64,000 nt of DNA from assembly GCA_013178225.1 (NCBI GenBank), contig JABLXE010000013.1, positions 62,001 through 126,000 of the forward strand, written 5' to 3'. The translations under genes and the position numbers were made by a program. The notes under the pieces were generated by a model. The model ran no database searches. It was not told the origin of the DNA and saw only the letters and a program-made list of their open reading frames with translations. This document shows, piece by piece, positions 62,385 to 64,000 of the stretch. Position 1 is the stretch's first letter; every line of letters starts with the position of its first letter. The DNA is from Methanotrichaceae archaeon. GTDB lineage: Archaea; Halobacteriota; Methanosarcinia; Methanotrichales; Methanotrichaceae.

Positions 62385-62855
62385 CTAATAGGATGAGGCC
62401 CAAGCCTTCTTTCGATAGGCAATCATAGTCTTCCAGCATCTTGGGGATCTGATCTCGGTTACAGACCAAATTGACACCATTAGTGGAAGTACGATCAAGC
62501 TTCCGTTCCCGTCCTCGAAAGGGTCGGCGGCCTTCGACGCATTTTGCATCACAGATTCTAGTGTCGGATCTGGAACAAAGGGTCCGGTTGCCGTAAATGA
62601 ACGCTGGCTGCGGCATGATGATACGAATAGCAGAACTGCAATTATCTCCGGGGCACCGTGGGAATCGAGCCGCTCGATGGCATTGCTGAATTCCAGGAAT
62701 CCCAGCTCACCCGTGCCAGGCAGGGATACTATTCGCGGGATACGCCCTTTGCGGCTTGGTTTCCGCCATCGCCCTCTGCCACCATGGATCCGGCCGCCGC
62801 CAGGATCAGTACCAGGAAAAATGATAGACAGTCTGACTCCCATAGTCCTTTTCAT
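62385..62855 (-). pseudogene. Decayed secreted-protein gene
   Basis: The frame starts MKRTMGVRLSIIF and then shifts. The neighbouring frame continues FLVLILAAAGSMVAEGDGGN, a good signal peptide. Further on, PDPTLESVMQNASKAADPFE looks coding in one frame and KMLEDYDCLSKEGLGLILLA in another. At least two frameshifts are needed to join these pieces. The family is not recognised. It lies 20 bases after the ZinT-like gene in the same direction. Confidence 0.45.
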
Positions 62856-62875: not shown

Positions 62876-63553
62876 TTATGCTGAGTCGTTCTTCTCGCTT
62901 AGAGCATTTGCAGCGCTGGATGCAGCCTCGTAGACCGGCTCCATAAGGGGATCATCGAGCAGCTGTTCGGTGTTCACCCATCTCCCGTTCCATTTATCTA
63001 AGGAGATTGAGCTGGTTGCAGCTTTCTGGGCTGCGACGACCAAGTCTCCAATCATCTCCGCTTCGGCAGCGTAGGCGTTCGCTACCGTCTTTGCGTTGGT
63101 TCCTTCAGCAGCCATGGTTGGATACCACATCTCGTAGGCGGGATTCTCCATCAGGATATCGAAGCATAGCTTGCCGTATCTCATATGCCAGTGAGAAAGC
63201 CCGGCTTCTTCGTGGACATCAGTGGCAATCACATGTTTATATTCCGAGCAGCCATACTGATCCGATCGCAGATTGAACATGTGCCACTCAAGTTGATATC
63301 CCTGAAAGTTAACGGTCTTGGATCCAACGTAGTCATATTCGCCTTTGCACTTGACCGAGCCGTCGGGGCTATAGAATGTGATGTTGTTTCCTGATATCTC
63401 GATGTCCCCGAAGTCGGTCTTCTGCATGGCATGGAAGAAATTGCTTACATCGTCGATGGCAAAATTGCCGCCCTCATCATCCGCCATGACAGAGATTGTG
63501 GCCAGCATCAAGACCATCACAGCGATAATACCTGAACTTTTCAATGTATTCAT
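62876..63553 (-). CDS. ZinT-like secreted metal-binding protein, apparently circularly permuted
   Basis: After a signal peptide (residues 1-24), the 225-residue protein has a ZinT/YodA-like core: VSNFFHAMQKTDFGDIEISG, GEYDYVGSKTVNFQGYQLEW, and metal-ligand His residues in IATDVHEEAGLSHWHMRYG. The W-x-G-x-W segment normally at the ZinT N-terminus instead appears at the C-terminus (SISLDKWNGRWVNTEQLLDD then PLMEPVYEAASSA). The order is thus permuted. ZinT binds zinc or cadmium outside the cytoplasm. This assignment rests on remembered motifs. Confidence 0.6.
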   Translation of the reverse strand: MNTLKSSGIIAVMVLMLATISVMADDEGGNFAIDDVSNFFHAMQKTDFGDIEISGNNITFYSPDGSVKCKGEYDYVGSKTVNFQGYQLEWHMFNLRSDQYGCSEYKHVIATDVHEEAGLSHWHMRYGKLCFDILMENPAYEMWYPTMAAEGTNAKTVANAYAAEAEMIGDLVVAAQKAATSSISLDKWNGRWVNTEQLLDDPLMEPVYEAASSAANALSEKNDSA

Positions 63554-63747
63554 CTTTCAAACCTCTCTTCTATGTCGGATGCCGCTGCATCCGCAAGATG
63601 TAACTTTACAATTAGGTGTATTTCCAATTAATCCAAATAGAGTTAGAAATATAAATGAATCCTAACCATTTTAGAATCAGAACTGATAGATTGAGGTTTA
63701 ACAGTGTGGTCTAAAGATGAACTTTAGCATCGCTTTTGCATGGCTGC

Positions 63748-63999
63748 CTAGCTCCCATGAAAATGAGAACTCGCCCTATAGATCACGTAATTCGCCCCCT
63801 TCTGCTCTATTAGAGATTCGTATTCGGATGGCAGAAGAGACATGATGGGGCCGCTTCTTATGATCACTCTGTCCTGAGCTATGCGAAGCATCTCATCTAA
63901 AAACCCCTTGATCCCAGAACGGAGATCCCCACGTTCCCGAAAAGGCCTAAGGGGCGGATTGAAGGTGACTACATAGCGAAAACTCTTGGTTGGATAGTC
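63748..63999 (-). CDS. Partial gene at the window edge, function unknown
   Basis: A minus-strand frame without stops enters from the right edge and ends at TAG 63748-63750. It encodes 83 residues, including SFRYVVTFNPPLRPFRERGD and GFLDEMLRIAQDRVIIRSGP. No family is recognised from the C-terminal fragment alone. The start lies beyond the window. Confidence 0.5.
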   Translation of the reverse strand, partial: DYPTKSFRYVVTFNPPLRPFRERGDLRSGIKGFLDEMLRIAQDRVIIRSGPIMSLLPSEYESLIEQKGANYVIYRASSHFHGS

Positions 64000-64000
64000 A

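Follow-up and report, generated by a model that had tools for sequence, protein, structure and literature searches.

The closest described relatives of the protein analyzed here belong to the ZinT/YodA family (PF09223), which includes ZinT of Escherichia coli. Known structures of ZinT/YodA show a lipocalin-like domain, and the family is characterized by a signal peptide for secretion, an eight-stranded barrel, a WxGxW ... LDPVF segment that precedes the core, and the binding of zinc in aid of ZnuABC. In Gram-positive AdcA, a ZnuA domain is fused to a ZinT domain in which three histidines bind Zn; this ZinT domain, which is also stabilized by Co and Ni, has an accessory role in metal uptake (PMC7858048). 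With regard to regulation, DtxR-family proteins recognize CCTAA repeats, classically in a 19-bp box (PMC10317159). In the open-access literature, we found neither a permuted ZinT nor a natural permutation of a lipocalin-like barrel, and none of the open-access titles and abstracts dealt with ZinT-type proteins in archaeal FeoB/DtxR loci.

Here we describe a gene (P0001) in a 64,000-nucleotide stretch of DNA (the window) from the 2.98-Mb genome of a Methanotrichaceae archaeon (G000). The encoded protein carries both parts of a ZinT domain in swapped order (Table 1). Its first 24 residues appear by inspection to be a hydrophobic signal sequence, as in secreted ZinT proteins, and the core follows directly. 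The WxGxW ... LDPVF segment, which comes first in the family, was found at residues 184-214, behind an Ala-rich linker that connects the old C-terminus with the moved segment and varies more than either of them. P0001 contains one WxGxW and one HxH core, and a single WxGxW per protein indicates that the segment was relocated rather than duplicated. As all six genomes with this gene show the core first and the N-terminal segment second, P0001 was classed as a permuted homologue of the ZinT family and not as an ordinary member. Comparison of the sequences supports the reading that this ZinT domain was circularly permuted in nature, which adds a new form to the known ZinT family.

Table 1. Coordinates of the permuted ZinT-like gene, its parts and the associated elements (window positions unless another record is named)
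Feature	Position	Strand	Basis
Circularly permuted ZinT-like gene (P0001, 225 aa)	62876..63553	-	ORF call; same-order orthologues in five further family genomes
P0001 signal peptide, residues 1-24 (MNTLKSSGIIAVMVLMLATISVMA)	63482..63553	-	By inspection: hydrophobic
P0001 ZinT core, residues 27-149, directly behind the signal peptide	63107..63475	-	Pfam ZinT positions 49-170
P0001 predicted metal ligands His114, His121, His123 (VHEEAGLSHWH)	63185..63214	-	Conservation and AdcA ligands
P0001 linker, residues 150-183 (~34 residues)	63005..63106	-	Predicted helical, low confidence
P0001 moved N-terminal ZinT segment, residues ~184-214 (SLDKWNGRWVNTEQLLDDPLMEPVYEAASSA; W188-N-G-R-W192)	62912..63004	-	ZinT positions 18-51
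Predicted operator TTTGG-N16-CCTAA; begins 84 bp ahead of the start codon	63612..63637	-	Conserved upstream of permuted and normal genes
Perfect inverted repeat of the 5' leader, GGATGC-N4-GCATCC	63577..63592	.	Nearly kept in L002 and L009
Further TTAGG-N16-CCTAA sites	L010:8301, 9702, 16445, 16757, 17494; L013:12409		Near ZinT, DtxR-type, feo and methyltransferase genes

The first-pass annotation had placed the core straight after the signal peptide and W-N-G-R-W at the end, an arrangement that was borne out by Pfam, phmmer and the archaeal comparison. First, the core (residues 27-149) matched profile positions 49-170 of Pfam ZinT with 36.2 bits (7e-9), above the cut-off of 27 bits, and the C-terminal piece alone matched positions 18-51 with 12.4 bits, under the cut-off. 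Second, phmmer aligned P0001 with E. coli ZinT in two pieces whose order was swapped, both matches being weak. The sub-threshold Pfam score of the tail and the weak phmmer matches would be compatible with a chance resemblance, i.e., a fragment of a ZinT core joined to an unrelated tail that happens to contain W-N-G-R-W. However, blastp against normal-order archaeal ZinT proteins gave 45-47% identity for the core of P0001 (E about 1e-46) and 41-44% between its tail and their N-termini (E 9e-10 to 1e-8), and the corresponding values for the permuted proteins of genus g7 were 62-67% and 52-77% (E to 2.5e-12). Over the whole permuted family, identity to the normal-order archaeal proteins was 42-67% for the core and 40-77% for the W-segment, with the pieces in swapped order, and the tail aligned over 25-47 residues with E-values of 2e-7 to 2.5e-12. 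Third, we searched whole genomes with a 30-position profile of the opening segment, which was built from normal-order N-terminal segments only (alignment A3). Its top match was the C-terminus of the permuted gene in all six permuted genomes, with E-values ranging from 2e-4 in the window genome, where the next-best match had an E of 0.35, down to 1.4e-9 elsewhere. Finally, none of 5000 shuffles of the P0001 C-terminus reached the observed scores. When the score gain was tested jointly against tandem E. coli ZinT, the result was mildly significant (5/1000), and only mildly because E. coli ZinT is distant; the comparison with archaeal ZinT, which is decisive for the swap, takes its place. A chance origin of the tail therefore appears extremely improbable. 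The earlier proposal of a natural circular permutation of ZinT is thus supported at the level of sequence by the normal-order relatives in the same phylum, by the whole-genome profile and by the selection described below.

The permuted order was observed in six genomes of the family, belonging to three genera (6 of the 50 genomes searched in the order, and 6 of 238 in the class, all in the same family), and the viral contigs searched contained no relatives. The named near relative of P0001 is L002 from Methanosaeta sp. PtaU1.Bin060 (genome G016, Methanotrichaceae; 73% identity), and a scan of genome contigs yielded one relative. L006 and L008 have an additional C-terminal domain of ~190 residues, for which only weak Pfam matches under the cut-off were obtained (FmdE, Prp). 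All six permuted genomes share the same cut, immediately ahead of [NG]F-[AT]-x-DD, as well as the same join, behind the post-core helix, so that a single event is the simplest reading. Many of the genomes here are metagenome assemblies, in which an assembly error, a frameshift or a gene-calling artefact might fuse two pieces. Such an explanation has almost no plausibility for a single open frame with the same order in six genomes and three genera, including G013 (one contig) and G015 (two contigs), with identical join points and with purifying selection.

Normal-order ZinT was found in three archaeal proteins of ~370 aa (L014, L015 and L016) from two other families of the phylum (genomes G256, G134 and G094). 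The bacterial ZinT examined, which were plasmid-collection relatives, had the normal order in all cases, and we therefore took this order as ancestral. The C-terminal ~150 residues of the three archaeal proteins are conserved and had no Pfam match in L014, which was the one searched. In the rhizobial records L033 and L034, the ZinT domain follows a different domain in a fusion, and this partner may be the zinc chaperone AztD; a related match carries the annotation aztD. In a maximum-likelihood tree of the permuted and normal-order archaeal sequences, with bacterial ZinT for comparison, the normal-order archaeal proteins fell beside the g7 permuted group (92/87) and the permuted sequences were not one clade; a single permuted clade was not rejected (AU p 0.085), and the g1/g8 branch was long. 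One origin, two origins and a reversal are each compatible with this tree. Repeated changes of the domain order in these archaea, be it a second permutation that returned a permuted ancestor to the normal order or a permuted order that arose twice with the same cut points, seem improbable to us.

The three ligand histidines, which had also been predicted from the first reading to be kept, do occupy the ligand positions: His114, His121 and His123 were invariant in the permuted and normal-order archaeal sequences (alignment A1), and they are the counterparts of the Zn ligands His452, His461 and His463 of Streptococcus pneumoniae AdcA (PMC7858048). Between the window gene and L002, dN/dS was lowest in the moved segment (0.07) and the core (0.08), followed by the linker (0.13) and the tail (0.28), and residues 1-27, the signal peptide region, were fast-evolving (0.80). 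For G012 versus G009, the moved segment was less constrained, at 0.31 (core 0.10, linker 0.78); the number of substitutions behind these values is small. In the pair of the window gene and L002, the moved segment is under purifying selection about as strong as that on the core.

The fold of the permuted protein is most likely still the lipocalin-like barrel of ZinT, in which the W-x-G-x-W strand would be back in its old place, as the closeness of the barrel ends would allow. In the lipocalin Blc, the termini are close together (PMC7338535). In a Subdoligranulum plasmid record (L019:2446-3963), a ZinT domain (139-325) lies inside ZnuA, at a His-rich stretch, and not at the C-terminus as in AdcA, which implies that the ends of ZinT can lie near each other. 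An AlphaFold model of P0001, based on a two-sequence alignment (window and L002), had a pLDDT of 46, and Foldseek returned no usable structural matches for this low-confidence model. Given the low confidence of this model and a long, less conserved linker (~34 residues) that would allow swapping, the C-terminal segment might instead complete the barrel of a second molecule in a swapped dimer, or pack elsewhere; the order would then be swapped, but the fold would not be a simple permutation. We regard this arrangement as quite improbable, as selection holds the moved segment about as strongly as the core, the identity of up to 77% between permuted and normal segments suggests the same packing, and the ZinT domain within ZnuA shows that the two ends can be neighbours.

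Circular permutation is usually explained by a tandem duplication followed by loss. This is also the likely route for the permuted ZinT: after an in-frame tandem duplication of the domain, the outer parts would have been lost, with copy 1 losing the opening segment and copy 2 losing everything behind it. The signal peptide would thereby be joined to a new N-terminus just ahead of the first core helix, and the opening strand-and-helix segment (W-x-G-x-W ... P-V-Y-E) would follow the old C-terminus via the Ala-rich linker. The direct intermediate would be a protein in which two ZinT domains are both complete or overlap, and no such protein was found among the relatives examined. At the G013 locus (L011:9075-14335), a gene for ZinT plus the extra domain has been duplicated with complementary loss. 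Copy 1 keeps the signal peptide and the permuted ZinT and ends there, whereas copy 2, which lies beyond two ABC-exporter genes, has the same upstream region and the same signal peptide, which is followed without a gap by the end of the ZinT domain and then by the extra domain. The two copies match in DNA at 226-473 with 269-518 and at 1024-1074 with 514-564, and both have kept the operator-like site. Copy 2 thus provides a real case in which the sequence adjoining the signal peptide was deleted, as the permutation model requires for copy 1. We also considered a derivation of the linker from the old signal peptide (blastp aligned P0001 residues 167-212 with L014 19-64), but dropped it, as these residues could be aligned with the C-terminal helix of L014 as well.

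The surroundings of the gene contain a DtxR-type regulator (L013:12721-13230, 0.7 kb past the window end), which matched PF01325 and PF02742 well above cut-off; its best NCBIfam match was MntR, below the cut-off of that model. In the window genome, this regulator and FeoB both lie just past the right end of the window, and the two genes occur within several kilobases of the permuted ZinT in G000, G015 and G012. A DtxR-type gene also lies downstream of the normal-order genes in L014 and L016. ZnuABC was not seen in the stretch read around the window gene, where the nearby transporter gene is FeoB. An unrooted tree of six sequences of this regulator was too star-like to order events. Several other neighbours were observed. 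A remnant of a CbiX/CfbA-like exported chelatase is present at window 62419-62729 (-) in two reading frames, which correspond to pieces of residues 78-294 of a 582-aa L002 protein, and intact copies follow the permuted ZinT in L002 and L009. On the other side, a small methyltransferase-like gene adjoins ZinT (window 63748-64000 (-), continuing into L013:11752-12225), with an operator-like site upstream; its L010 relative has borderline methyltransferase matches only, and the gene possibly belongs to the same regulon as ZinT. In G015 (L009:6446-7755), a gene that by inspection is transposase-like separates the permuted ZinT from its operator-like site.

The motif TT[A/T]GG-N16-CCTAA was present upstream of all eight distinct ZinT genes, permuted and normal, with a half-site gap of always 16 bp. 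In shuffled sequences it occurred 0.01 times on average and at most once, a figure that overstates the case for the pattern, which was chosen after viewing these sequences. A slightly longer form had one to four sites per genome, many of them at the ZinT locus, and G012 has further copies of TTAGG-N16-CCTAA in the vicinity of the regulator gene, of the feo genes and of a methyltransferase gene. The classical 19-bp box TTAGGTTAGSCTAACCTAA, whose outer half-sites are 9 bp apart, was not seen, the N9 spacing occurring in none of the genes. Given that CCTAA repeats classically form such a box, the N16 element would be a related, differently spaced one, and we consider TTAGG-N16-CCTAA a candidate metal-regulator operator with unusual spacing.

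Taken as a whole, the observations are best explained by a secreted, circularly permuted ZinT-like metal binder that is metal-regulated and has a role in metal capture, to which we assign a probability of roughly 0.8. P0001 would act in a metal-regulated locus beside FeoB, its three histidines holding a divalent metal outside the cell membrane. Under metal shortage, the neighbouring DtxR/MntR-type regulator would probably derepress the gene via TTAGG-N16-CCTAA, and the protein would then help to capture metal (Fe2+, or Zn/Ni/Co) alongside FeoB. Several observations weigh against this explanation: the AlphaFold model is of low confidence and had no structural match, the permuted sequences were not one clade in the tree, a direct two-domain intermediate did not turn up among the relatives examined, the half-sites are not spaced as in the classical DtxR box, and the gene's surroundings suggest iron more than zinc. 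The order swap, the homology of both parts, the conservation of the ligands, the selection on the moved segment, and the shared regulator and operator-like site are the computed part of this explanation; barrel closure, metal identity, regulation, the uptake role and the evolutionary route are what we infer. It is also conceivable, if unlikely, that the permuted protein is a repurposed relative that takes no part in metal uptake and serves, for example, as a general metal sink or in a sensor-like function. The patchy distribution (6/50 genomes of the order), the degraded CbiX-like gene downstream in the window and the transposase-like gene that separates the operator-like site from the gene in G015 would fit such a change of function, whereas the core dN/dS of 0.08 with invariant ligands, the operator-like site shared with the normal-order genes, and the FeoB and DtxR-type genes close by argue against it.

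As a rule, a natural circular permutation has to be deduced from proteins that are only very distantly related. In the present case, the permuted and normal forms (core up to 67% identical) occur in related loci of one phylum and share their operator-like site. Such close pairs, together with the G013 duplication with complementary loss, make the states before and after the permutation and part of the route directly testable, and the permuted ZinT, found in a few methane-making archaea, offers unusually good comparative material for how permutation arises.

Compared with known systems, P0001 resembles E. coli ZinT/YodA in its predicted secretion, its homologous core with H-x(n)-HxH ligands and its homologous W-x-G-x-W ... 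LDPVF segment. It differs in the swapped order, the archaeal host, the lack of a His-rich N-terminal stretch, and a location beside a DtxR/MntR-type regulator and FeoB. The ZinT domain of AdcA has the normal order and is part of an ABC-transporter binding protein, whereas P0001 stands alone. The locus is similar to DtxR/IdeR/MntR loci in having a nearby DtxR-family regulator and TTAGG/CCTAA half-sites, but these putative half-sites are 16 bp apart, in contrast with the 19-bp four-repeat box. Finally, the permuted family shares its operator-like site with the normal-order archaeal ZinT proteins (L014, L015 and L016), which differ from it in having W-x-G-x-W at the N-terminus and ~150 extra C-terminal residues.
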